Positions 8,119 through 62,249 of a stretch of 64,000 nucleotides of DNA are shown here, in pieces. The DNA is from Haloarcula marismortui ATCC 43049 (GTDB lineage: Archaea > Halobacteriota > Halobacteria > Halobacteriales > Haloarculaceae): NCBI RefSeq assembly GCF_000011085.1, contig NC_006397.1, positions 1-64,000 of the forward strand, written 5' to 3'. The position numbers were made by a program, and so were the translations under genes. A model generated the notes under the pieces. It made no database searches, had not been told where the DNA came from, and was given only the letters and a program-made list of their open reading frames with translations. Each line of letters begins with the position of its first letter. Positions within the stretch are counted from its first letter, which is position 1.

Positions 8119-8794
8119 CTATTTCCAGTATAACCAGGACTGGGTGACCCTTCCGATATATGGGGAGGACCCCACTGTTTCCACTATATCACCTGCGCTC
8201 TATCGCGGTGCGGTTGAAGACCAGTAGAATGGAATTAGGTATATACGAGATAACTGCCGCTTGGCGCTATGTGGAGCGATAGTACCCCACTATTTCCAGT
8301 ATATAGCGTGTCGTGGGGGGACTAGACACACCCCACCGTTTCCAGTAAATCGGAGTCACTGTATCATGAGTTGTGACAGATGGGTCAGACCACTGGGTTC
8401 CAGTATTTCCAGTAAATACCTTTTTATAAGAGTTAGAGACCCCACCGTTTCCAGTATATCGGTGAAACAAGTGTAATCAGGAGACTGAAGTAGGATGGAA
8501 TGGTGTAGATTATTGGTACACCCTCCCCCCACTATTTCCAGTAAAGAACAACGAAGTAGCGACGACTACAGAAAATGAACTTTGATCTAGGGAAAAGTTT
8601 ATAATAATAGCATTATAGCTAGACCGTAGTAGAGCTAGAGCGGTGTTGTTGTAGGGACTAGTTCTAGTGAAAGAAATGAGGTGCGGAGCCTAACTTACCT
8701 GTCCTACTAGCTTTAGTGGAAATAGTGGGGGGAGGGTGGCCATTCTTACTTCTTCTATCCTAATGTGTAATTCTAATAGTAGAAATAGTGGGGT
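8119..8794. other. candidate replication origin 1 with ORB-like repeats
   Basis: Seven copies of CCCCACYRTTTCCAGTAWA or its core lie in plus orientation at 8119, 8169, 8284, 8330, 8403, 8439 and 8526. Two copies lie in the opposite orientation at 8712-8732 and 8777-8794. The opposing sets bracket an AT-rich stretch (8545-8710, with TTTATAATAATAGCATTATA) that could be the unwinding element. A G/C-string joined to TTTCCAGT resembles haloarchaeal origin recognition boxes, and the divergent adjacent orc1 gene fits. Confidence 0.75.
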
Positions 8795-8801
8795 CTGACG
8801 G

Positions 8802-8921
8802 GTGTCAGACAACGGGAGTTGGAACCCGAAACTTCGCGGAATGGCATACGGACTTCTTGGAATACTTGGGTTGCTGGTGTATCTGGTACAAAAGGAGCGT
8901 CAAAAGGCTGGCCCGACCTGA
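8802..8921 (+). CDS. possible 39-residue single-span membrane protein
   Basis: A GTG-started frame encodes about ten polar residues, one hydrophobic helix (MAYGLLGILGLLVYLV) and a basic tail (QKERQKAG). It lies directly beside the last origin repeat. No ribosome site is obvious and the family is not recognised. The clean polar-helix-basic pattern is the only support. Confidence 0.35.
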   Translation: MSDNGSWNPKLRGMAYGLLGILGLLVYLVQKERQKAGPT

Positions 8922-9200
8922 CTAATATATCTGTCCGCTCGAGCTCCTCACTGATGTCCCGGATAGGGCAAATCGGTACGTTCGAAGGTCTACCTTGCAG
9001 TTAGTTCACTCGCTTTCACAGGTGAAGAAACTATATCCAACGACTGGTCTCACAGGCATGGGACCCATTTTTTAGCCCCAGTCTGGTGAGGGCCGTTCCA
9101 GTGAGAGCGTCCTGACCGTACCATGGGAAGGCTACTGAAGGCGATCAAAACGGAAAATAACATCCAGCAACCGAACCCACTGAAGCGCAGTTTCCAGAAC

Positions 9201-9430
9201 TTACTGTTGATTGTCACGTAGTACCTCAGAAACAGGATACCGGTCTGAAGTTCCAGTCACCGCTCGTAGTTGGGGGACTCGCTCCGAGAGTTCCACAGGC
9301 GTGTGGCTGTCCAATCCAAGAACGAACTGGATTCCATACTCAGTGAACAGATCTAGCACCGCTGGGTCAGGATGTACCCGGCCAAGTGATCCATGGACGC
9401 GGCCAGCATTCACTTCAGGGATTGTTCTGG
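9201..9430 (-). pseudogene. C-terminal fragment of a PHP-domain phosphoesterase
   Basis: About 75 residues read EVNAGRVHGSLGRVHPDP and later FVLGLDSHTPVELSERVP. The late PHP motif GxDSHTP is characteristic of haloarchaeal histidinol-phosphatase-like proteins of roughly 230-270 residues. The N-terminal two thirds with the first metal-binding histidines is missing. The fragment runs into a transposase fragment at about 9420, so the gene was probably cut by an insertion or deletion. Confidence 0.6.
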
Positions 9431-9610
9431 AGTATCGTTGAACGTGCGGTCGCAATTCTTACAGAGATACCGTTGAAACTCTCTGTAGCTGCCGTTTCTG
9501 ACCGTCCGGTCAGAACGGCAGCGAGGACAGGTAACACCGTCACGCCAGCGAACCTGCTCCAACAGGTCTGCTGCGACCGATTCCAACCCAAACACATCGA
9601 GCGGAATCAT
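9410..9610 (-). pseudogene. N-terminal fragment of an IS1595-type transposase
   Basis: The 66-residue frame begins MIPLDVFGLESVAADLLEQV and has a zinc ribbon with CPRC and CKNC, ending at DRTFND. This is the typical N-terminus of haloarchaeal IS1595-family transposases of about 300 residues. The DDE domain is absent. The break after FND joins directly to the PHP fragment. A GGGCACC/GGTGCCC hairpin at 9618-9641 may mark the element end. A C-terminal fragment of what looks like the same family lies at 60.8 kb. Confidence 0.65.
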
Positions 9611-9902
9611 TCGTGTCGGGCACCACTGGCGCGGTGCCCTTGTCCTCTTCGACTCCGCAGCTACCGCTCTCCAGTATCAACAATCTCTTATGCAAGAGCG
9701 GCAGAGTAATAGCCGTTCCTACTCCACTGCGTTCGTACTTTGTGTCTCTCTGACGAGTAGAGGATACGGAGACAGTGTCTCAAAGGTTTCCGAGATGGCT
9801 TCGAGCACAACCTCTCGAATGTGGCTCCAGCTGTAGCTCAGAGATTCATTTCACCGTTTAGTATATCGGTTTCAAGCTAATCAGGAGGCTGCCAGTGACT
9901 GC
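9611..9902. other. no complete gene; short decayed frame
   Basis: On the minus strand, 9719-9846 is open and reads SWSHIREVVLEAISETFETL up to a TAG, with no start codon and a stop just upstream. It looks like the tail of a real protein of unknown family. The rest shows nothing. Confidence 0.3.
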
Positions 9903-10040
9903 CTACGGAATCACGACATCTTTCATCCGTCCCTCACAGCGGCGACACGTGAGTTCCCTGCTCGGTGCCGTTGTCCGATAGCCACAGTTGGTACATTTGA
10001 ACTCTTTTTGCTCTTTCGCAAGTGGGTCTCGCCGGCTCAT
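9903..10040 (-). CDS. 45-residue zinc-ribbon protein (rubrerythrin-like domain type)
   Basis: A small ORF begins MSRRDPLAKEQKEFKCTNCG and contains a second pair CRRC, ending DVVIP. Two CxxC knuckles about 15 residues apart make a rubredoxin/zinc-ribbon fold likely. Haloarchaeal proteins of 45-60 residues with this layout are often annotated as rubrerythrin-like. It is monocistronic with a TATA-rich upstream region (10045-10075). It probably binds zinc; its partner is unknown. Confidence 0.7.
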   Translation of the reverse strand: MSRRDPLAKEQKEFKCTNCGYRTTAPSRELTCRRCEGRMKDVVIP

Positions 10041-10320
10041 ATGGCATATTTAGTATCCCTATAGTAATAATTCTTTTCGGCCATCATATCATTCACCCAA
10101 TTACACTATGAGCACATCTCTCCGGTAGTAAGAGAGTATATACAATGGGTTATTATAGTGAAATGTGGCGTATAGAATAATCTATAGCGGGGGTAGTTGA
10201 ACCCCACCTGAGAGACTATCACCTACTGGCGTTTGCTCACGTTATTCCAGCCGTTGAATCCTCGCGAGAAACACATCCAATTCAACAAAACCGACCAACA
10301 ACTGCGACACCATACCCGAA
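10041..10320. other. AT-rich intergenic region
   Basis: No gene is seen. The stretch holds several A/T-rich blocks (ATTATAGTGAAATG, TAGTAATAATTC) that could serve as promoter for the zinc-ribbon gene. No convincing terminator of the amidase gene is seen. Confidence 0.3.
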
Positions 10321-11229
10321 TCAGAATGGGTGCGACAAGTGCTCTGCAGGGATGGAGTTTCGCACGGTTACGAGTGGATCGACGACTTGGCTTATTTCGA
10401 GTCCGCCAACAAGACTGGAAAACAGGTATGCCTCTGTCTTCGACATGTCGTGATCGGCTTGCAAGAGGTCAAGGATATCACGGTTAGCCAATTTGACTGC
10501 CTCTTCCATCGTGTCGGCGCTGGCGATTGACTTGATATTCTCACCCGTATCTACAATGGGACGGTCGAGTCCAACACCGGGGTCCGAAATCACTGAAACC
10601 GTGACATCGATTTCGGTCCCGATTTCGGCACCTGTCCCGCACATCTCTCCGTCGGCCATAGCGGCCTTGGAGTCGCCCATCGCCAACATTGCCCCGTCCT
10701 GAAATACGGGGAAGTAAGCAGTGGTTCCGCCGGTCATGTCGGTGGTATCGAGGTTCCCACCATGGTCGTGAGGGGTCAGTGTCGTGATGGTCTCTTCTGC
10801 GGTAGCCACACCAATTGTCCCGATCATCGGCTCGATCGGAATTTCGTGGCCGTCGAATTCGATCGTGTCACCATCGACTTCGGTGATTCGGGTCGCAGGG
10901 TGTTCAATCTCTTCGTCGTCTTGTAGCAATCCGAAGTCCGGCGTCGTGACCACTCGGCCCTGGCCCTCGGTGACCCGCACCGCTTCAATCTCGACCGCCA
11001 AGATGTCACCCGGCTCAGCACCCTCTACTTCGATTGGGCCGGTCGCTGCGTTCACTTCGTCCGGAATCGAATCAAGGAGGTCGTCACCAGTCTGAATCGT
11101 TTTATTGAGACTATCGATAGTCTCGATTGTGAGCGATTCCCCGTCGGCAGCTGTATAGACCGGATCCATCTCCGGAGAGAACTCGTAGATGTGGCCGTCC
11201 TCGTCGAATGAGACACATCGGCGTGACAT
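10321..11229 (-). CDS. acetamidase/formamidase family protein
   Basis: A 302-residue member of the FmdA/AmdA family, which hydrolyses short amides to carboxylate and ammonia in the cytoplasm. Diagnostic segments are PMIGTIGVA, TPHDHGGNLDTTDMTGGTT (metal-site His/Asp/Asn) and FQDGAMLAMGDSKAAMADGE with the catalytic Glu region. The C-terminus carries EAYLFSSLVGGLEISQVVDP, which is also typical. Length is normal and the start ATG at 11229 gives a complete N-terminal beta-domain. It stands alone with no transporter beside it. Substrate cannot be told from sequence. Confidence 0.9.
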   Translation of the reverse strand: MSRRCVSFDEDGHIYEFSPEMDPVYTAADGESLTIETIDSLNKTIQTGDDLLDSIPDEVNAATGPIEVEGAEPGDILAVEIEAVRVTEGQGRVVTTPDFGLLQDDEEIEHPATRITEVDGDTIEFDGHEIPIEPMIGTIGVATAEETITTLTPHDHGGNLDTTDMTGGTTAYFPVFQDGAMLAMGDSKAAMADGEMCGTGAEIGTEIDVTVSVISDPGVGLDRPIVDTGENIKSIASADTMEEAVKLANRDILDLLQADHDMSKTEAYLFSSLVGGLEISQVVDPLVTVRNSIPAEHLSHPF

Positions 11230-50204: not shown

Positions 50205-51485
50205 TCAGAACGAGTCTAACGTCGTCGATGTCTCGTCTGTAGCAAACAACTCCGCTAACCGCTCGTCCTCTTGAAGTACTTCCTGTGCCAAATCCGCGCG
50301 AATCGAAAATTCGTACTCATAGTATGAGCCCCCTTTGGGGCCCTTATTCTGTTCATCTACGTCCAGGAATCCTTTCAGCGTCAACTGTGACAACCGGTCA
50401 TGAATCGTTCTGTCAGTCCGCACATCCGCATCGATACGCTTTGCAGCCATTACATACCGCTCATAAATTCGGTTACGCTTGGACGGCGTTTCATCCTCCC
50501 GCTCCAACAGTAATAGGGAGTAGAGAGTCAGTTTACTCTGTGTTGGCAAGCGAGTTAATTCGTCGCGCACTTTATCGCGCTCAACAATCTCGTCTGCCTG
50601 TCTCACATGCGCTCCGGTGATGACGTCGGACTCCTCATCTCGTGCCAGATCTCCAGCCTTATACAATCGCTTCAGCGCCTGTCGGGCACTTCCAGAGTCT
50701 TGTGCGGCAAACGCTGCACACAACGGAACCACATCGCCCTCCAAAATATCAGACTGTAACTCATAACTGCCATCATCAAGTCGCTGAGCCGAAGTACCGT
50801 GAAACGCCTCACCAGCACGCTGTTTCAAGATGTTCCCGAGTTCGTTCGCATCATACGGTGGAAAATGGATCTCTTCGTCAGCGAGACTGTCCTTCACACG
50901 CGCTGAGAGGTTATCGCGGAACGTGAAGTCATTCGAGATACCGATTACCCCAACCAGTGTATCTTCAACGTTCTCGTTATCGTTCGCCCGTGGAAGCTTA
51001 TACAGGATGTCATCATCATTCCCAATGGCATCAATTTCGTCAAGTACGATCAAGCAATGTGTTGCATCGAGTGCTTCCAGCTCATCGAACAACATATTGT
51101 AGATCATCCCGCTCGGATACCCGGTCGGTTTGATTTGCTCGGTTGGCGGACGAAATTGATTAATGAGGTTTGCAGCCACCTGATAACTGCTGTTCAGCGA
51201 TTTGCAATTTAGCTCAATTACTTGAACATCGACACCGTCGATATTTTGCTGATCCTCGATCAGTCGTTCAACGACCATCCTCGAAGATAGTGTCTTCCCG
51301 ACTCCAGTCTGGCCATATAGAAATAGGTTTTTCGGCGGCGCACCGTTAATCACAGGTTTGAGCGCACTCTGGTACTGCTCAAGTTCTGTGTCGCGCTCAA
51401 TAAGGCGGTCAGGTTGATACCCGTCCCGTAGGACCGATTCGTCTCGGAAGATAGTGGAGTCAGGAGAGAACGGTTCGAGTCCCAT
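50205..51485 (-). CDS. orc1: Orc1/Cdc6 replication initiator B
   Basis: A 426-residue AAA+ initiator. Walker A GQTGVGKT (58-65), Walker B CLIVLDEID (D149, E150), and a C-terminal winged-helix part with LTLYSLLLLEREDETPSKRN. It shares the plan of initiator A but differs through most of the sequence. Its start faces a block of its own repeats (51520-52294), so it should serve a different origin. The ParA module lies downstream. Confidence 0.93.
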   Translation of the reverse strand: MGLEPFSPDSTIFRDESVLRDGYQPDRLIERDTELEQYQSALKPVINGAPPKNLFLYGQTGVGKTLSSRMVVERLIEDQQNIDGVDVQVIELNCKSLNSSYQVAANLINQFRPPTEQIKPTGYPSGMIYNMLFDELEALDATHCLIVLDEIDAIGNDDDILYKLPRANDNENVEDTLVGVIGISNDFTFRDNLSARVKDSLADEEIHFPPYDANELGNILKQRAGEAFHGTSAQRLDDGSYELQSDILEGDVVPLCAAFAAQDSGSARQALKRLYKAGDLARDEESDVITGAHVRQADEIVERDKVRDELTRLPTQSKLTLYSLLLLEREDETPSKRNRIYERYVMAAKRIDADVRTDRTIHDRLSQLTLKGFLDVDEQNKGPKGGSYYEYEFSIRADLAQEVLQEDERLAELFATDETSTTLDSF

Positions 51486-53885: not shown

Positions 53886-56192
53886 CTAACTCCCACCAAG
53901 CACCCGCTTGAACAGGGTAAACGTGAGCAGCGTGAACAGGAGTCCATTGAGCATCCCCTGACTCGCCGCGAGGAGCTTCGCTCCCCACCCGATAGGACCG
54001 ATTCCGCCGTAGCCGATGGTAGAAAAGGAAATGTATGAGTAGTAGATGCCATTTCCTATTACTGCCAGCTGGTCCTCGGCATTCCAGACAACGCCTGCCC
54101 CAGTCTCCAAGGGGCCTCCGAGGACATACAAAATGCCGTATACGAGTGGAAGAAGAAACGTAAGCGCAGCAATCCGCGGGAGTCGATTCCCGTAGCCACA
54201 AGTAAACTGCATCACACGGTTCAGGACGACACTAGCCCCCTTCTTTGCCTTCGTCGTTGCGTCCAGCGAGTATTCGTCTCTGATGAGACTGAGATTTTTT
54301 CGCCGGTTGTAGTGGAACCGCTTGTATTCGAACTCGCGACTCGCGGGCGTATCGCCGACGTCGTTGGCACTCGTCATTGCTTTCCGGTAGGTCTCTTCAA
54401 TCACGTCGGGAGTCATTTCCACGCTGAAATCGCCAGTCGCGTTGTTCCCGCTGAACTCGTGTAGAACCCAGTCGTTCCGCTCTAAGTACGAGTGGTGATC
54501 CGAGAAGTCGAAATGGTCGAAGTCAGTACGGCAGAACCGAAACTGATCAAGCAGTTCACCGGACCCGTTCTCGCTTCCCAACTGGACGTTTCCGACTGTG
54601 GCCTCGGTGAAGTCGAATGGAATATTGGAATCGCCGGGTTCGACGATTTGGCCGCCACTAATACTCGCGCTGACGAAATTCATATAGATATCATCGTCAA
54701 GCGCGTGGAGACGGATATGCACCTCACCAGTAACGGTCGCGCCGGTGAAATCAACCTCGACCGCGAATCTAGTATCCCATAGAGACAGGTTCGTGAACGT
54801 AGCCTCCCGAAACGTAGCGTTGGTCTCGAAGACCGCCTCCTCGAATGTAGCGTTATCTTCGAGCGATTTTGCTTCCCCCTCGAAGAGCGCACCCACGAAG
54901 CTGGCTTCGGACTTGAACGTCGCTCTCTTGAAGCTCACGTCCTCGTGAAACCGCACTTCATCGAAGGTCGCAGGCCCACCAAAGGTCGCGTTCACGAAAT
55001 CCGCGTCGGCGTAAAACTCCGTTTCGAAGGCACTAACAGAGCCCTCGAAGGTGGCGTCGTGGGCATGTACAGGATCGCTGAACACCGCCCGGTCGAGACA
55101 GAGGTCGCCGAGCACGTGCATATCATGGCAGTCGACCCGGGCTTCGAACTCCGCACGGTCGAGGTTGAGCCGCCCATCGAAGGTGGTTTCGCTGAAATCA
55201 GCGTACCGGAACCGGGCTAGCTTGAAATCAGCATCCCCACGGAAATGCGCATTGTCGAATGCGATATCATCTTCAACGGTACGGGCGCCGCCATTGAACT
55301 CGGTTCCCCGGAAGTTGGCACGTCCATCGACAGTAACGTCGGTAAACGTAGCGTCTTCGTTGAACGTGGCCTCATTGAACGTTGCTGACCGGCGGAACTC
55401 TGTAGTCGCGAATGTGGTGTCATCACCGAATATCGCGTGGGTAAACGTCGCATCATCGTCGAATTGCGTGTCGGCAAACGTCGCACACTCAACCGCTGCG
55501 CGATTGAACAATGCGGCTGACTCGAAGTGAGCGCCAGCAAAGGAGATATGATCGTCTAACTCGTGGCTGGAGCCACGTGCGGTGATGTTCCGAAATGAGG
55601 TCTCCCCGGTAAATGATGCGTCTCGGAAGCTCGTATCCTCATCAAAGATCGCTTCATCGCAGTCGACACGACCGTGAAAGTGTGCCTGAGAAAAGCGGAC
55701 ATCTTCGTGGAACGTCGTCTCATTCGCCGAGAATTCGTCGGTGACCGTGACTGCTGTCGCCTCAAGAATACCCGATAGGATGGCATCGTCGAGCTTGAGA
55801 CTGCCAATGGTCGCCTCCCGGAGATTGATTCCTTGCGCAATGTGGCCGTGGGTGATGTCTAGTGCCGCAATATCGGCATGTTGGAAGTTGAGCAGATGGT
55901 TTGTCGCCCCGTCGATTTGCTGATATGTGAGCGACATTGTGGGAAGGTCGGCCCCGACGTACTCGTTACTTCGCGGGTCTTGAGAGGTGAGGTTCTCACG
56001 GAGTGTCTGCACGATATCGTCGTCGGTCACATCGAGTGACCGGCGCTCGGCACGCGACATATGGAAGATGCAGTTGTCGCTCTCTGCGTGAGACTCGTGT
56101 GGGCACTCCCATGTTGTCTCGATATACGCGTCTGTCTCGTTTGACGGGTCAAAGCGATACGAACATGTCTCGGCGTCGGGGACTGAGCTCAT
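53886..56192 (-). CDS. pentapeptide-repeat K+-channel-like protein
   Basis: A 768-residue protein. Residues about 10-45 hold possible metal ligands (CSYRF, WECPHES, DNCIFH). Residues about 85-560 are dozens of A(D/N)LxX-type pentapeptides (FNEATFNEDATFTDV style), which fold as a right-handed beta-helix. Near the C-terminus come two membrane helices (around 650-670 and 740-765) with a pore loop FSTIGYGGIG whose TIGYG (725-729) is the K+ selectivity filter motif. So it is a two-helix channel with a very large soluble domain. Last gene of a five-gene operon, 76 bases after the 313-residue protein. Confidence 0.85.
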   Translation of the reverse strand: MSSVPDAETCSYRFDPSNETDAYIETTWECPHESHAESDNCIFHMSRAERRSLDVTDDDIVQTLRENLTSQDPRSNEYVGADLPTMSLTYQQIDGATNHLLNFQHADIAALDITHGHIAQGINLREATIGSLKLDDAILSGILEATAVTVTDEFSANETTFHEDVRFSQAHFHGRVDCDEAIFDEDTSFRDASFTGETSFRNITARGSSHELDDHISFAGAHFESAALFNRAAVECATFADTQFDDDATFTHAIFGDDTTFATTEFRRSATFNEATFNEDATFTDVTVDGRANFRGTEFNGGARTVEDDIAFDNAHFRGDADFKLARFRYADFSETTFDGRLNLDRAEFEARVDCHDMHVLGDLCLDRAVFSDPVHAHDATFEGSVSAFETEFYADADFVNATFGGPATFDEVRFHEDVSFKRATFKSEASFVGALFEGEAKSLEDNATFEEAVFETNATFREATFTNLSLWDTRFAVEVDFTGATVTGEVHIRLHALDDDIYMNFVSASISGGQIVEPGDSNIPFDFTEATVGNVQLGSENGSGELLDQFRFCRTDFDHFDFSDHHSYLERNDWVLHEFSGNNATGDFSVEMTPDVIEETYRKAMTSANDVGDTPASREFEYKRFHYNRRKNLSLIRDEYSLDATTKAKKGASVVLNRVMQFTCGYGNRLPRIAALTFLLPLVYGILYVLGGPLETGAGVVWNAEDQLAVIGNGIYYSYISFSTIGYGGIGPIGWGAKLLAASQGMLNGLLFTLLTFTLFKRVLGGS

Positions 56193-56268
56193 ACGTCGCT
56201 AGGGGAGAGTGAACTGGGCATTGGGGTAGCTATTCAGTAGCGTGATTGTTTATTTGGAGCATAGTCGT

Positions 56269-57210
56269 TCAAAAAATCTCACGCCGTTCCTCCGGAGTGA
56301 GCGACGTATCCGGGGCGGAGTGTGCGCAGTGTTCGCACTCGTAGCTGCCGCCTCCTTCTTCGTACGTAATGATTGGTGTCCCCAGTATGAAGAACGCCTC
56401 CTTTTGTTGGCGTTCGATGATCGCATCAGCGGCTTCACCACACCCTCGACACCAGTCCTCATCTTCGGCAACCGACTGATAGGTCACCTTCGCGCGGCCG
56501 AACGTGACCGCGCTGTACGCTTCGTCTTCGGTCGTCTCAATGAGATCGTCGGCCGGAAACGGCTGCACGTCGATCGTATTGTCGAACCCGGTTTCGACGG
56601 CCGTGTCGACGTCGATGTAGGGACCCAGGTCGACTCGATTGTCCCGACCGACAATATGGACCTCGACAGCGGCATCGCCGCGAACAATGAGTTCGTTGTT
56701 CGTCCCAATGAGATAGCAGCTGACACTGCCTGTCGCGCCTGTCACGTTAACGGTGGACTGACAGCCTGAGAGAACGACCCCAGTGTTGGGATCCGTTACC
56801 TCTCGCTGTTGTTGCCAGCCACTTACCGTGACGTCGTAGGTTGCGGGGTCACGAGACGGCGCATCGCTTGTGCCGGCGTCAAAGACCTGTTCGGGGCCAC
56901 GCGCTGAGAGTGCCCCATCGACAGCGCCGTGGGCGATGAACACGTCTTCGGCTGTGCCAACCGCGAGGTCACCATGGACGCCATCCGGTTCCGTGTAGCC
57001 ATCCTCCAGCGTACCGGTGATATCAGTCACCGGGTCAGCCACGTCAGCAGCCGGTGTGATTGGCACGCCGGTGAAGACGTACTCGACGTTCCGCAAGTCG
57101 AGATCGCCGTCAATCGAGTCGGGCTGTACATACATGTCTTCCAGTCCGGACATCCGAACCGGTGTCTCTATGCCGCCGTTGAGAGTCACGTCGCCTGTGT
57201 ACTCGCTCAT
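56269..57210 (-). CDS. beta-solenoid-like protein with C-terminal Cys pairs
   Basis: A 313-residue protein with no signal. Residues 5-100 repeat a motif LEDMYVQPDSIDGDL, AEDVFIAHGAVDGAL; residues about 130-220 hold NELIVRGDAAVEVHIVGRDN. Both are beta-solenoid-like. The end has CRGCG and CEHCAH, likely a zinc site. ATG 57210 was chosen over the longer frame to 57396, which lies inside the upstream gene. It follows the 159-residue gene by 16 bases. Family unknown. Confidence 0.72.
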   Translation of the reverse strand: MSEYTGDVTLNGGIETPVRMSGLEDMYVQPDSIDGDLDLRNVEYVFTGVPITPAADVADPVTDITGTLEDGYTEPDGVHGDLAVGTAEDVFIAHGAVDGALSARGPEQVFDAGTSDAPSRDPATYDVTVSGWQQQREVTDPNTGVVLSGCQSTVNVTGATGSVSCYLIGTNNELIVRGDAAVEVHIVGRDNRVDLGPYIDVDTAVETGFDNTIDVQPFPADDLIETTEDEAYSAVTFGRAKVTYQSVAEDEDWCRGCGEAADAIIERQQKEAFFILGTPIITYEEGGGSYECEHCAHSAPDTSLTPEERREIF

Positions 57211-57226
57211 GGTGTGAATCGGTCCG

Positions 57227-57706
57227 TTAGATGCTAGTCGGGGCCCAGTACTGCGCGATGCTTGTGGTGGTAACCACCAGCAAGTCGTGCTCTGGGTAGG
57301 TGTGGTACGTCTCGAACGTCCTGTCGTCGGTCGTGATCGCCGTATAGGCACGTGGCCCGAACTCGTAGCAAAGGTCGTAGTCCGCTTCCGGGTCAAATTC
57401 CGATAGTGGGAGAGTCATTGCCATGCTAGACACACCGTGTGGACTCGCAAGTGAGTCCGTACAGCCCTGTTCGAGCGGAATTACCTCGGCATCCTGTTCG
57501 GAGATGGGTTTGCACGAGCAAATTTCATGGAACCCGAGCGAGTCGGCAGTAACGGCGTGTGAGTTGCCGATGACGCGGAAGGTAGCTGTCTCCCCACAGA
57601 AGGGGAGCGTCTGTGCTTGTTTTACATCCATCGCGTTGAACGACGGCGGCACATCAGGATGTGCCAGATAGAGTTCAGTCGTGGTCTGGTGTGTTGTGTC
57701 GCCCAT
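57227..57706 (-). CDS. hypothetical protein in SpeE-channel operon
   Basis: A 159-residue acidic soluble protein with Cys-containing motif (FHEICSCKPISEQDAEVIPLE, CTDSL) and beta-rich ends. Its ATG shares one base with the stop of the SpeE-like gene (TAATG), so translation is coupled. Family unknown. Present between the spermidine-synthase-like and beta-solenoid genes, it probably works with them. Confidence 0.68.
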   Translation of the reverse strand: MGDTTHQTTTELYLAHPDVPPSFNAMDVKQAQTLPFCGETATFRVIGNSHAVTADSLGFHEICSCKPISEQDAEVIPLEQGCTDSLASPHGVSSMAMTLPLSEFDPEADYDLCYEFGPRAYTAITTDDRTFETYHTYPEHDLLVVTTTSIAQYWAPTSI

Positions 57707-59499
57707 TATTTAATGAGGATATCGTAGTTTGGATGGAACACGCTATTCGGCCGGACACCGGCGTATCTCGGCGTGTCTACCCACTCGACCGCTTGGTAGC
57801 GGTGCTGATAGCGGTTCATGTATGCTGTGCCGTTATGTGGCGAAAGCGAATCGCGCGGTGCCGGTGCGAGCAGTGTGAACCGCTCGACGCGCTCTGTCTC
57901 GCCATCTGCGTCAATATCTTCCCATGCGAAATACGGTGCTGCACTCGTCAGGCCGGCTTTGTGAACCGTGTTGTAGTACGCGGTTCTGTGCTGGGCGTAG
58001 CTGTATCGTGAATACGTCCACGTCGCGATCACGCCGTCTGCTGTAAGATGCTGGCGCAGCTGACTGTAAAACTCCACAGAGTATAGCGGGAGCTGGTCGT
58101 CGTCGGTCGCCCCAGGGATGTCCAGCAAGATTACGTCATAGCGCTGCTCGGACTGCTCGAGGTACTGGAACGCGTCTTGCACGCGCGTCGATTTATTTTG
58201 GTATCGGTAGGCTCCGTCGTGGTACTGCGCAAGGAACGGATCGGTCTTCGCCCGCTGCATGAACTCGCCGTCGATATCGACGTGGTCGACACTAACCCCG
58301 TGTCGTTGCAGTCGGTCCATCGCCGCCCAATCGCCCCCACCGATGAGGAGAACCTTCGTGTCAGTACTATTTTCGAACATCGACAGCGGGACGTCGACGA
58401 GCCCTTGATGATAGCTGTCTGCCCACGACTCACAGAGTTGGACAGCGGAATCCAATCTGAGACAGTGTTCCGTGGTGGCACCGAAGTACGGGTTGTCGCC
58501 GCTGCCGGTCCACGTTCGGTTGTACTCCGTGACGCGTTGGTACCTCGTCGTCCACGTGTCTGTGACAGCAACGTCCATCGCCCCCGGAGCGTACTCCAAC
58601 TCGAATTCTCGTTCGAAGTAGTACTCAGAGACGTCCTCGCCAACCGGGCCCGCGTTGACAGCCGCGGCGCCCGTGCTTGCTGTGACGAGCAGGCAGACTG
58701 CGAACAGCGCCTTCCCCGTTGATCCTACTGGCTGTGGGAGTCGGCTTCGAAGCGTTGGTCTGTGTGTGTTCGCCGTCGTGCTCGCGAAGATTAGCGCAGC
58801 GACGCCGTTCAGGAACGCAAGGACGAACACCGACGGTATGAGTCCAACTGCCGGATAGAGGAAGAACACGTAGACAAGTGAGCCGACTAACCCGCCAAGG
58901 TAGTCAAAGCCCAATACTGCTGCATAGGCACTTGTTTCATCGGCTGGGTCGCTCGGCTTGCCCTCTCGCCGCTTGATGCTAAAAGCGGCGCCCAACACCA
59001 CTCCAAAGGCCCGATTCAGATGGCTGGTGAGTCGCCGAACCCCGCGGGCGATACTGGAGGGGGGCCGCGCCGTATCCCGAACCGATTCCGATAGTGTGGT
59101 CAACAGCGGCAACTCGAACCCTGAGAGGAACCCGATTGTGACAATCGGGAGCCGGGCAATCGCGCCGACTAGTGGCGCGTATGCAGCGGGGTATCTGAGC
59201 GTTCCGAGCAGGATGACGAGGAGGAACCCAAGCGGTGCAACGACGGCGAGGTACGTTTCGACACGGAAGAAGTTCGACTCGGGGTCTGTCTCCAATCGGC
59301 CTGAGAGGAACGATCCTAGCCCCAGCGACGAAAAGAACAATCCGATAGTGAGGCCGTACTGAGTGACGCTCCCGCCGAAGACAACTGTGTAGAGCTCGGC
59401 AAAGACGAGTTCGTACGCAAAGCTACACAGCGCAACGATAAACGTGAGCGCGTGCAGCAGCGGGACGCTGTGGCGCGGATGGTGCGGTCGTGGTGTCAT
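57706..59499 (-). CDS. membrane-fused spermidine-synthase-like protein
   Basis: A 597-residue protein: N-terminal membrane domain with about 7 helices (15-280) and a C-terminal aminopropyltransferase-like domain (300-560). In the latter GGGDW (387-391), DIDGEF (408-413), D442, LLDIPG (458-463) with D460, and LYSVEFY (472-478) correspond to the decarboxylated-SAM-binding and catalytic motifs of SpeE. So the methyltransferase-like fold with a catalytic Asp is intact. Bacteria have similar membrane SpeE proteins in clusters with DUF350/DUF4178/DUF4247 proteins. It could add aminopropyl or modify a membrane partner; substrate unknown. Confidence 0.85.
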   Translation of the reverse strand: MTPRPHHPRHSVPLLHALTFIVALCSFAYELVFAELYTVVFGGSVTQYGLTIGLFFSSLGLGSFLSGRLETDPESNFFRVETYLAVVAPLGFLLVILLGTLRYPAAYAPLVGAIARLPIVTIGFLSGFELPLLTTLSESVRDTARPPSSIARGVRRLTSHLNRAFGVVLGAAFSIKRREGKPSDPADETSAYAAVLGFDYLGGLVGSLVYVFFLYPAVGLIPSVFVLAFLNGVAALIFASTTANTHRPTLRSRLPQPVGSTGKALFAVCLLVTASTGAAAVNAGPVGEDVSEYYFEREFELEYAPGAMDVAVTDTWTTRYQRVTEYNRTWTGSGDNPYFGATTEHCLRLDSAVQLCESWADSYHQGLVDVPLSMFENSTDTKVLLIGGGDWAAMDRLQRHGVSVDHVDIDGEFMQRAKTDPFLAQYHDGAYRYQNKSTRVQDAFQYLEQSEQRYDVILLDIPGATDDDQLPLYSVEFYSQLRQHLTADGVIATWTYSRYSYAQHRTAYYNTVHKAGLTSAAPYFAWEDIDADGETERVERFTLLAPAPRDSLSPHNGTAYMNRYQHRYQAVEWVDTPRYAGVRPNSVFHPNYDILIK

Positions 59500-59543
59500 T
59501 GGGGGGACTCAGGGCAACGAACGGCGGACGGGCGAGCTGCGGG

Positions 59544-60326
59544 TCAAATTCGGGGTGAAACCTTCCACTTCTGGGCTATGCTGTAGGTATCATTGTCGTC
59601 CTTGACGAGGACATCGACGGCCTCCCAGCCGAGATTAGTGCCGTCGGCTGCGGTAGTGTGTGTGCCGACTCGGTACCAGCCTGCGTTCGTGACGTCGATA
59701 CTAACTGTATCGTCGGGATTTTGCCACGTCTCATCCCACGAAACTGGCCCTGGCGCAGGCAGCTCCTCGTCGGTGTCGCTTACTGGGCCGATGCGGGCAA
59801 TTCCCACCTCGGAGATTTCGGTTTCGGCCCGGCGCACCTCGTCATCGTGGTCATCGTACCACGTCCCAACGTAGGCGCCACCGTGGTACTTGGCACGGCC
59901 TCGTCCAGTACGAGGCGCATCAGAATAGGAGGAGCCTCGGCCACGACCAACAGCACCGCGGCCACCGCCACCACCGCCTTTCTGTGCTTGGGCCGTTCCA
60001 ACGGGACTCAGCGAGCCGATGACCGACAGTCCACTCGGTGAATCCTTGGCGTTGCTGTCGAGTGACTGCGCGTTCTGTCCATTGATTGGGACGCCGTCTC
60101 GTCTGGTGGCTACCCACGGGTCGTCAACGAGCTCAGCCAGCAGTTGGGCGCTATCGATTGTAACTGTGCTGAGGACTCGGGACCGGCGTGGTGGCGGGCT
60201 CTCTGAGCTACTACAGCCAGAGAGTCCGACCAGACCGGCTGTCGGAAGGAGGGCTGCGCCATGGAGGAATCTACGTCGGTCCACAGCAGGCCTTTGTGGG
60301 TGTATGTAAAATGTTTTTTTGTTCAA
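59544..60326 (-). CDS. Tat lipoprotein with Gly-rich linker
   Basis: A 260-residue exported lipoprotein. The signal AVDRRRFLHGAALLPTAGLV and LSGC place the lipid anchor at about Cys38. A Gly/Arg-rich low-complexity stretch follows (GGGGGGRGAVGRGRGSS, about residues 115-150), then a beta domain (160-260) with YVGTWYDDHDDEV and TNAGWYRVGTHTTAADGTN. First gene of the five-gene operon, 45 bases before the SpeE-like gene. Its role may be the external part of the channel system. Confidence 0.75.
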   Translation of the reverse strand: MNKKTFYIHPQRPAVDRRRFLHGAALLPTAGLVGLSGCSSSESPPPRRSRVLSTVTIDSAQLLAELVDDPWVATRRDGVPINGQNAQSLDSNAKDSPSGLSVIGSLSPVGTAQAQKGGGGGGRGAVGRGRGSSYSDAPRTGRGRAKYHGGAYVGTWYDDHDDEVRRAETEISEVGIARIGPVSDTDEELPAPGPVSWDETWQNPDDTVSIDVTNAGWYRVGTHTTAADGTNLGWEAVDVLVKDDNDTYSIAQKWKVSPRI

Positions 60327-60951: not shown

Positions 60952-61340
60952 CTCACCAGTAACGTGCTTCATATGAGCGTAGAGATTAAGTACAGCGAAC
61001 CGTCACTATCGATTCCGTGCTAACTCGGATGAATCGGTCCGTTAGTAGAACTGCTCACTGAGAGCAAGTGGGTCTCAAGCTATACCGACCGCCAAGAGTA
61101 ATTGTGGGAATTGATTTCTGCCGTCCTGCGATTTCGCTCACAATCTATCCGGACCCTAAGTATATACTACCAGTTGTTATTAGAGCAGATTGGGATTCTG
61201 TACCGTCAAAGCGTTCCTGGGAGCAGATATCCCGATTCGGCAATGTTCAACTGACGGGTAGTATAAGAGTGGACGGTAACTTCAGCGAATGAAGCCGGCC
61301 GGCGTCCCTGATAGGTATTCCAGCCGTTTCTCCGAGTGTG
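60952..61340. other. no gene; AT-rich upstream DNA
   Basis: Only short open frames. A/T-rich blocks at 61140-61170 (ACCCTAAGTATATACTACC) could be the promoter of the CPBP protease gene or of another decayed one. Confidence 0.3.
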
Positions 61341-62249
61341 ATGGAATCGAACCGCTCGCTGCTCGCACGACTCATCAACGAACATCCGGTTGTGGTGTTC
61401 TCCGCACTGGCAATCGGACTCTCTTGGACGGTGTGGATTGCGACGTTTTCGATAACTACCTCACGGTCGGGACTATGGATGTTGGGAATAGTCCTCGGAG
61501 CCTTCGGCCCTGGAGCCGCGGGAGCGGTCGTGACACGCCTCCGTGGTGAATCAGTCCACGCTTGGCTCGCAACGATTTTCGATTGGCGACGACCACTCCG
61601 CTGGTACGGACTCGCAATCGCCGTCCCGGTGGTTGGGGCCCTTGGAGTCGCTGTCGTCGTCTTCTCGCTCGTGGGGCTTCCCGACAGCAGTTCCCTTGGG
61701 CAACTGGCCCCGCTCTTCCTGTTTAATCTGGTGCTGGCGACACTGTTCACCGGTGGAAACGAGGAGTTCGGGTGGCGGGGATTCGCACTCCCACATCTCC
61801 AGAAGCGGTTCAGTGCGCTCACCGCGAGTGTTCTCGTCGGTGGCGTCTGGGCACTCTGGCACGTCCCGATGTTCGTCTACGACGTGTACCCCCACTCACC
61901 GGTTCTGTACACTGCCAGCGTGGTTTGTTTTGCGGTCATCCTCACGTGGTACTACAACGCGTCGGACGGATCTGTTCTCGGTGCCGTACTGTTTCACGGG
62001 ACGCTCAACGCCGCGGTGAACGTCCCCGGGCAGGCTGTCGGCGGCGCGGCAGCAGTGCCGGTCCCATACGCGGCGATTCTGACCGGCACGTTCGGGGTCC
62101 TCGCTACCTTGTTCGTCGTCCGCTACGGTCCTGAAACGCTTTCACACAACGAAGCCGTCCAGCCGCGCTGGACGGGTTCCCGGTCGACTGACGGAGCCGT
62201 GTCCGGTAATCCCTCCAGCGATGGACACGGAACTGAACCGTCCGACTGA
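61341..62249 (+). CDS. CPBP-family intramembrane metalloprotease
   Basis: A 302-residue membrane protein of the CAAX-protease/bacteriocin-processing (Abi) family with about 8 helices. Catalytic motifs are seen: NEEFGWRGF (Glu-Glu with Arg), WALWHVPMF (His) and FHGTLNAA (His). It would cleave within or near the membrane; no substrate gene is adjacent. ATG 61341 follows an alternative GTG. The C-terminal 40 residues are polar and Ser/Gly-rich. Confidence 0.85.
   Translation: MESNRSLLARLINEHPVVVFSALAIGLSWTVWIATFSITTSRSGLWMLGIVLGAFGPGAAGAVVTRLRGESVHAWLATIFDWRRPLRWYGLAIAVPVVGALGVAVVVFSLVGLPDSSSLGQLAPLFLFNLVLATLFTGGNEEFGWRGFALPHLQKRFSALTASVLVGGVWALWHVPMFVYDVYPHSPVLYTASVVCFAVILTWYYNASDGSVLGAVLFHGTLNAAVNVPGQAVGGAAAVPVPYAAILTGTFGVLATLFVVRYGPETLSHNEAVQPRWTGSRSTDGAVSGNPSSDGHGTEPSD

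Follow-up and report, generated by a model that had tools for sequence, protein, structure and literature searches.

A DUF2617 protein encoded beside a membrane SpeE-like enzyme in haloarchaea as a probable divergent S-adenosylmethionine decarboxylase

The stretch of DNA analyzed here (the window) comprises the first 64,000 nucleotides of contig NC_006397.1 of Haloarcula marismortui ATCC 43049 and carries a cassette of five minus-strand genes, in which a small protein of the DUF2617 family is encoded next to a membrane-bound relative of the aminopropyltransferase SpeE. Read from its upstream end, the cassette encodes a twin-arginine translocation (Tat) lipoprotein with a Gly-rich linker (P0005, 59544..60284), a membrane-fused SpeE-like protein of the aminopropyltransferase family (P0004, 57706..59499), and the 159-residue DUF2617 protein (P0003, 57227..57706), proposed below to be a minimal pyruvoyl enzyme resembling S-adenosylmethionine (AdoMet) decarboxylase (AdoMetDC). 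These are followed by a 313-residue beta-repeat/beta-solenoid protein with a four-cysteine, zinc-ribbon-like C terminus (P0002, 56269..57210) and by a pentapeptide-repeat protein with a C-terminal, two-helix, K+-channel-like pore (P0001, 53886..56192). All five open reading frames reported in a first-pass annotation made from the sequence alone were confirmed, as was the tight packing described there, with spacings from lipoprotein to channel of 44 bases, a 1-base overlap (TAATG, joining the SpeE-like stop to the DUF2617 start), 16 bases, and 76 bases. This spacing suggests that the five genes are co-transcribed. The lipoprotein appears more likely to start at the GTG at 60284, which is the start annotated in the close relatives Haloarcula sinaiiensis and H. 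hispanica, than at the alternative TTG at 60326.

The 159-residue protein had been listed as one of two unknown proteins, a description that does not hold for it, as it scores above the Pfam cut-off for DUF2617 (PF10936; 31.4 bits versus 22.3), and a DUF2617 match was obtained in all 35 archaeal relatives. A profile built from the archaeal sequences matched a single PDB sequence up to an E value of 10, that of the AdoMetDC 2iii (E of 0.16 to 0.44), and the alignment covers the FxPxxxT...HTWPE active-site motif, with the DUF2617 side reading ayrFgpdAvTtidvdergyeTYHTYPEhdlaly. Taken alone, this match is not significant (E of 0.16). AdoMet_dc is the sole Pfam family besides DUF2617 to be matched by more than one of the 35 members; because the three members concerned (best E, 0.027) do not reach the PF02675 cut-off, DUF2617 is filed here as a divergent relative of AdoMetDC and not as a member of PF02675. 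No match to PF01536 was found in a search in which no positive control matched. Profile-profile comparison of DUF2617 with archaeal AdoMetDC gave 88% (P of 3e-6), whereas four other profiles from the cassette gave at most 0.2%, and the C-terminal half of DUF2617 alone gave 94% (P of 1.4e-7). When 85 families of open reading frames clustered from the loci were ranked blindly against AdoMetDC, the top two were both DUF2617, and the third had a P value of 0.003.

The AlphaFold model of the DUF2617 protein has a mean predicted local distance difference test (pLDDT) score of 92.3 and a predicted template modeling score of 0.86. Re-ranking of the top 1000 Foldseek chains with VIA-align placed human AdoMetDC first, with a Z score of 7.7 and a root mean square deviation of 3.8 over 136 of the 159 residues, and residues 5 to 151 of the model lie on residues 4 to 261 of the chain, spanning both of its halves. 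Ranks 2 to 4 are trypanosome AdoMetDC/prozyme entries (Z of 6.3, 6.2, and 6.2), and the first unrelated row scores 4.3. The protein is thus predicted, from its model, to have the AdoMetDC fold. In the human chain, two class 1b units are fused, of which only the first contains the cleavage serine (PMC10407285). The DUF2617 protein, too, carries its two halves on a single chain, in the manner of the eukaryotic class 2 enzyme, with a candidate cleavage serine in the first half only. It shares with AdoMetDC of prokaryotic class 1b (SpeD, PF02675) and of class 2 the predicted fold, the Ser/Cys/His positions, and a FxPxxxT...HTYPE motif, but it differs from both classes in being only 159 residues long and in having no long helices in the model.

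Three residues, S63, C83, and H68, are named essential in the AdoMetDC of Thermotoga maritima (PMC10407285), and Ser49, Cys65, and His135 of DUF2617 match them. These three belong to a set that is invariant in 35 DUF2617 sequences and also includes His50, Glu61, Phe116, Thr122, Tyr137, and Glu139. In the second half, His135, Thr122, Phe116, and Glu139 correspond to His243, Ser229, Phe223, and Glu247 of human AdoMetDC, of which Phe223 and Glu247 have adenine- and ribose-binding roles; in the first half, Ser49 corresponds to Ser68 and Cys65 to Cys82. The human sequence blocks used were checked against the PDB. The placement of His135 (codon at 57302..57304, minus strand), which aligns with the HTWPE motif of AdoMetDC, is firm. 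The weakest link is the placement of Cys65 and of Ser49 (codon at 57560..57562, minus strand), the proposed pyruvoyl precursor, which draws on the fold together with an alignment of the first half that is weak. The second-half position equivalent to the cleavage serine is not conserved in the 35 sequences, which would leave a single cleavage site, the class 2 arrangement, and cleavage before Ser49 would yield chains of 5.3 and 12.2 kDa. The human enzyme differs from DUF2617 in having serine where the latter has Thr122.

Several observations weigh against DUF2617 being an AdoMetDC. Foldseek alone gave no significant match for the model, and a Z score of 7.7, being below 8, lies within the range of a mere common arrangement and is not decisive alone. 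The N-terminal half with Ser49 and Cys65 gave only 6.8% (P of 0.005) when compared alone, which is weak sequence support; profile comparison of the two halves of DUF2617 with one another gave no match, and the match of the DUF2617 profile to fragments of human AdoMetDC was not significant, an equally high score being reached by 63 of 2000 shuffles. The residue before the cleavage serine is serine in most relatives, not glutamate, and human Glu8 has no recognized counterpart. Absence of canonical speD from the carrier genomes, described below, proves little alone, because many Halobacteria have a SpeE-like protein without speD or DUF2617. A final point comes from bacterial DUF2617, whose residues were probed by scoring point variants (an alanine scan) on the mostly bacterial Pfam profile from a baseline of 31.4 bits. 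The largest drops were seen for His50, Tyr137, His135, Pro138, Cys65, Glu61, Gly47, and Ser49, whereas hardly any drop was seen for Thr122, Phe116, or Glu139, where glutamine is preferred; these three are not conserved in that profile. The Ser/Cys/His set is therefore family-wide, and only in archaea can the substrate-side residues be called firm.

That no single method is conclusive alone, and that Foldseek found no significant match, would suit a convergence on one motif, in which DUF2617 would be a beta-sandwich enzyme of a different kind, unrelated to AdoMetDC. The published description (PMC11237479) also fits, in that DUF2617 appears there only as an enzyme with a predicted beta-sandwich and two conserved histidines. 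However, independent lines concur on AdoMetDC, namely, the sequence profile, the blind family ranking, the structure ranking, the residue positions, and the gene slot, and convergence is considered very improbable. Homology of DUF2617 to AdoMetDC is well supported by the profiles, predicted structure, conserved residues, and gene position.

The variability of Phe116 and Glu139 in the bacterial profile bears on a different alternative, that DUF2617 is an active pyruvoyl enzyme of the AdoMetDC fold working on another substrate, such as arginine or ornithine, and so making the amine acceptor and not the donor. Arginine and ornithine decarboxylases among AdoMetDC homologues are indeed widespread in bacteria and archaea (PMC10407285). 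Yet neither Phe116 nor Glu139 varies in archaea, where the motif alignment pairs them with human Phe223 and Glu247, the genome of H. marismortui already encodes the arginine decarboxylase PvlArgDC, and the speD-like gene found by membrane SpeE in bacterial clusters is annotated as a canonical AdoMetDC. The SpeE-like enzyme would, moreover, still be left without a donor, and a change of substrate is regarded as quite unlikely. Because of PvlArgDC, agmatine may be available in this organism.

The SpeE-like protein combines a membrane N terminus with a C-terminal domain that matches solved aminopropyltransferases (E of 3e-22). Pfam Spermine_synth scores 55.8 bits against a cut-off of 22.9 (E of 5.6e-15), and the polyamine aminopropyltransferase model NF002956 matches with an E value of 5e-58 but a score below the model's own cut-off. 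These are its closest models, so that placement in a plain methyltransferase family, a possibility raised in the first-pass annotation, is not borne out. The catalytic residues, described there as intact, are so only in part. The protein retains the Asp of GGGD (D390), the acids of VDxD, the Asp on the adenine side (D442), and the leading Asp of DxxDP (D460); D390, D442, and D460 are invariant, and the donor-side acids correspond to Asp104, Asp155, and Asp173 of the human enzyme. The second Asp of DxPDP is replaced by a glycine (D460-x-P-G463) that is invariant in all 26 haloarchaeal sequences aligned. The protein is called SpeE-like only, because it lacks the complete acceptor-side DxxDP motif. 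The early suggestion of a polyamine-like, aminopropyl modification remains plausible, but with the acceptor-side catalytic Asp altered, the enzyme may transfer aminopropyl to an atypical acceptor. A role in anti-phage defense was considered and rejected, the sole PADLOC match being a weak one to mad2 (E of 2.8e-6) over the core of the SpeE-like enzyme.

Among the 292 Halobacteria genomes surveyed, canonical AdoMetDC was found in two, and in none of the 42 that encode the DUF2617 protein, whereas it is common elsewhere in the same phylum (55 of 148 genomes). The two exceptions are G139 (L113:6373-8154) and G090 (L070). In the former, speD and speE form a canonical haloarchaeal pair of adjacent genes with the same two-enzyme logic as the cassette, but with a standard small SpeD, a soluble SpeE containing DISDP, and no recognized lipoprotein, solenoid, or channel gene. 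In 14 control genomes, AdoMetDC was matched in eight and DUF2617 in two others, Corynebacterium glutamicum and Haloferax volcanii; the latter lacks canonical AdoMetDC, and the former matches DUF2617, DUF350, DUF4178, and DUF4247, but not AdoMetDC. About 99 Halobacteria genomes (e.g., G118 and G196) encode another, distant SpeE-like protein of approximately 470 to 760 residues without canonical AdoMetDC or DUF2617.

The occurrence of other SpeE-like proteins in Halobacteria without any speD would also make sense if DUF2617 were a non-catalytic derivative of AdoMetDC, either a prozyme-like partner or an AdoMet sensor, and the SpeE-like enzyme used another donor, for example AdoMet for aminocarboxypropyl or methyl transfer. 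The lost second Asp of DxPDP is consistent with this, as is the finding that three of the four best structural matches are trypanosome AdoMetDC/prozyme entries, although uncleaved chains match the model best partly because they have both halves on one chain. On the other hand, Ser49, Cys65, and His135 are all invariant, a conservation that a dead enzyme would not require, all three also count in the profile of the wider family, and the carrier genomes contain no canonical AdoMetDC partner for a prozyme to activate. A non-catalytic DUF2617 is therefore held to be unlikely.

The association of DUF2617 with the SpeE-like enzyme is general among the carriers. A close relative of the SpeE-like gene lies beside the DUF2617 gene in all 42 (neighborhoods rebuilt from DNA), contrary to the possibility, raised at the outset, that the genes are seldom together, and the lipoprotein, 313-residue protein, and channel genes are nearly always near. 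Of 48 loci, which represent the 42 genomes plus plasmid records that are partly from the same strains, all have the lipoprotein and the SpeE-like protein, 47 have the 313-residue protein, and 44 have the channel. The 159-residue protein was found in 47 by direct phmmer, the exception lying at a contig end; this count was used because those from an iterated DUF2617 profile included artefact reading frames in other frames and were discarded. Some of the absent genes reflect loci at contig ends, and the loci of Haloferax larsenii and H. elongans have no channel gene in the vicinity. Another set of 44 loci, which come from named genera and were obtained from a scan of genome contigs with an archaea-specific motif that reached only Halobacteria, shows the same pattern in Haloarcula, Haloferax, Halogranum, Natrinema, Natrialba, Halosimplex, Halorientalis, Halohasta, Halorussus, and others.

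The idea of a conserved operon-like cassette with a recurring order holds for its content, which recurs in about 20 genera, and for the lipoprotein-SpeE-159-residue core, in which the lipoprotein gene is always upstream of the SpeE-like gene, but not for the outer genes. Those for the 313-residue protein and the channel change place and lie in line, upstream in divergent orientation, downstream in convergent orientation, or in exchanged positions. That content is kept while order is shuffled is strong evidence of a functional link among the cassette genes. The 313-residue protein is nearly confined to the cassette, with 43 strong matches in the 292 genomes, of which 42 coincide with the 42 DUF2617 carriers (hypergeometric P of ∼4e-50, with relatedness ignored), a grouping well beyond chance. 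Distance correlations among the five proteins range from 0.81 to 0.94, values that are expected from shared descent alone. In the one additional carrier of the 313-residue protein (L195 of G258, ∼8413-10536), that gene is intact, the lipoprotein, DUF2617, and channel genes are fragments, and SpeE was not recognized; the locus is apparently a decayed copy of the cassette. Four loci of one clade (L106-L109) encode a SpeE-like protein of ∼530 residues that lacks part of the membrane region and a 313-residue-type protein of ∼200 residues without the N-terminal repeats, in inverted orientation.

Bacterial counterparts anticipated in the first-pass annotation do exist. Ravi et al. (2024, PMC11237479) describe a DUF4247-DUF2617 operon variant with SpeE-like, DUF350, and DUF4178 partners, and DUF2617 in actinobacteria including Mycobacterium tuberculosis. 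That operon and the archaeal cassette share DUF2617, a secreted protein or lipoprotein gene, and polyamine-type enzymes in one operon, and the placement of DUF2617 beside SpeE in every haloarchaeal carrier joins the cassette to the bacterial DUF4247/DUF2617/SpeE/DUF350/DUF4178 operon. None of DUF350, DUF4178, and DUF4247, the families named in the first-pass annotation, is present in the H. marismortui genome, as judged from searches that each had a positive control (C. glutamicum matches all three); in their stead, the archaeal cassette has the 313-residue solenoid/zinc-ribbon protein and the channel protein with pentapeptide repeats. Clusters that contain DUF4178 and DUF350 on plasmids of Alteromonas and Novosphingobium carry canonical speD directly after and two genes after membrane SpeE, respectively, so that DUF2617 can be said to hold the speD slot. 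The membrane aminopropyltransferases of these clusters (NF002956/PRK03612 type) share with the haloarchaeal protein the membrane N terminus, the SpeE domain, GGGD, and the first Asp of DxPDP, as well as a gene next to or near them for AdoMetDC or, in the cassette, for its proposed substitute DUF2617. They differ in keeping DxPDP (DLPDP and DFPDP) where the haloarchaeal protein has DxPG, and identity is ∼25%. No description of the archaeal gene set was found in the literature consulted, in agreement with its initial assessment as undescribed, and the passages on DUF2617 that were consulted do not link it to AdoMetDC.

The other three proteins of the cassette are also conserved in their main features. 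The twin arginine and lipobox cysteine of the lipoprotein are invariant in 29 relatives, and its only Pfam match is a weak one to TAT_signal, with no known family. Assignments of the lipoprotein to DUF4247 and of the 313-residue protein to DUF4178 found no support in Pfam. The model of the latter (pLDDT of 91.4) shows beta repeats, a solenoid, and a four-cysteine end. Beta-solenoid structures match residues ∼120 to 218 with Z scores of up to 8.7, a general resemblance limited to the middle part, and Foldseek with the whole model returned nothing significant. The zinc-like CxxC pair reported at first was upheld, as its four cysteines (C254, C257, C292, and C295) are invariant in 27 relatives. 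The channel protein, with pentapeptide repeats on the N-terminal side of a two-helix pore, exceeds the cut-offs for Pentapeptide_3 and Ion_trans_2 (PF07885; 27.5 bits versus 22.5). Its TIGYG selectivity filter motif, read from the translation at residues 725 to 729 (54006..54020, minus strand), recurs as T[IV]GYG in 44 of 44 relatives, which bears out its description as K+-channel-like. Polyamine block as in Kir channels was considered; the pore-lining helix has no acidic residue in the window protein, and some relatives have a glutamate near the helix start. The N terminus of the channel protein (∼56060-56165, minus strand) contains a zinc-knuckle-like C..Y.F...W.CPHE...C.FH cluster, present in one subgroup of relatives only.

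The cassette lies on a 288-kb contig, between an Orc1/Cdc6 replication initiator gene (50205-51485, minus strand), ∼2 kb past its downstream end, and a gene for a CAAX-type (Rce1-like) membrane protease (61338-62249, plus strand). These flanking genes suggest that the contig is a secondary replicon. Plasmids of H. sinaiiensis and H. hispanica bear near-identical copies of the cassette.

Considered together, these data make it probable that DUF2617 is a divergent AdoMet decarboxylase feeding the membrane SpeE-like enzyme as part of a two-enzyme module. One short chain with two AdoMetDC-like halves, resembling the eukaryotic class 2 enzyme, would cleave itself before Ser49 to generate the pyruvoyl cofactor. 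Its active site would be formed by Cys65 from the half that contains Ser49 and by His135, with Thr122, from the other half, and the enzyme would produce decarboxylated AdoMet from AdoMet. With this donor, the membrane SpeE-like enzyme would place an aminopropyl group on an acceptor that, given the loss of the acceptor-side Asp, is probably something other than a standard diamine. More speculatively, the remaining three proteins of the cassette may act in sensing or response at the membrane, and the envelope-stress or ion-control role suggested in the first-pass annotation is likewise speculative. With DUF2617 as the missing AdoMet decarboxylase, a vague idea of aminopropylation would become a concrete two-enzyme module.

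A broader form of this proposal, for which the case is evenly balanced, takes DUF2617, as it occurs in haloarchaea and actinobacteria, to be a minimal fused AdoMetDC of prokaryotes with a class-2-like layout. It would supply membrane SpeE-like enzymes in lineages that lack canonical speD, and the pathway, linked to a K+-channel-like protein with pentapeptide repeats, would aminopropylate something different from a free diamine. The proposal gives a testable enzyme activity to DUF2617, a domain of haloarchaea and of actinobacteria including M. tuberculosis (PMC11237479). If true, it would explain the donor supply of SpeE-like enzymes where speD is missing, and it bears on the view of the fused class 2 AdoMetDC layout as a eukaryotic invention (PMC10407285). 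It would also give the membrane clusters that combine SpeE with DUF proteins a defined chemistry, for which Haloferax volcanii is a tractable host.

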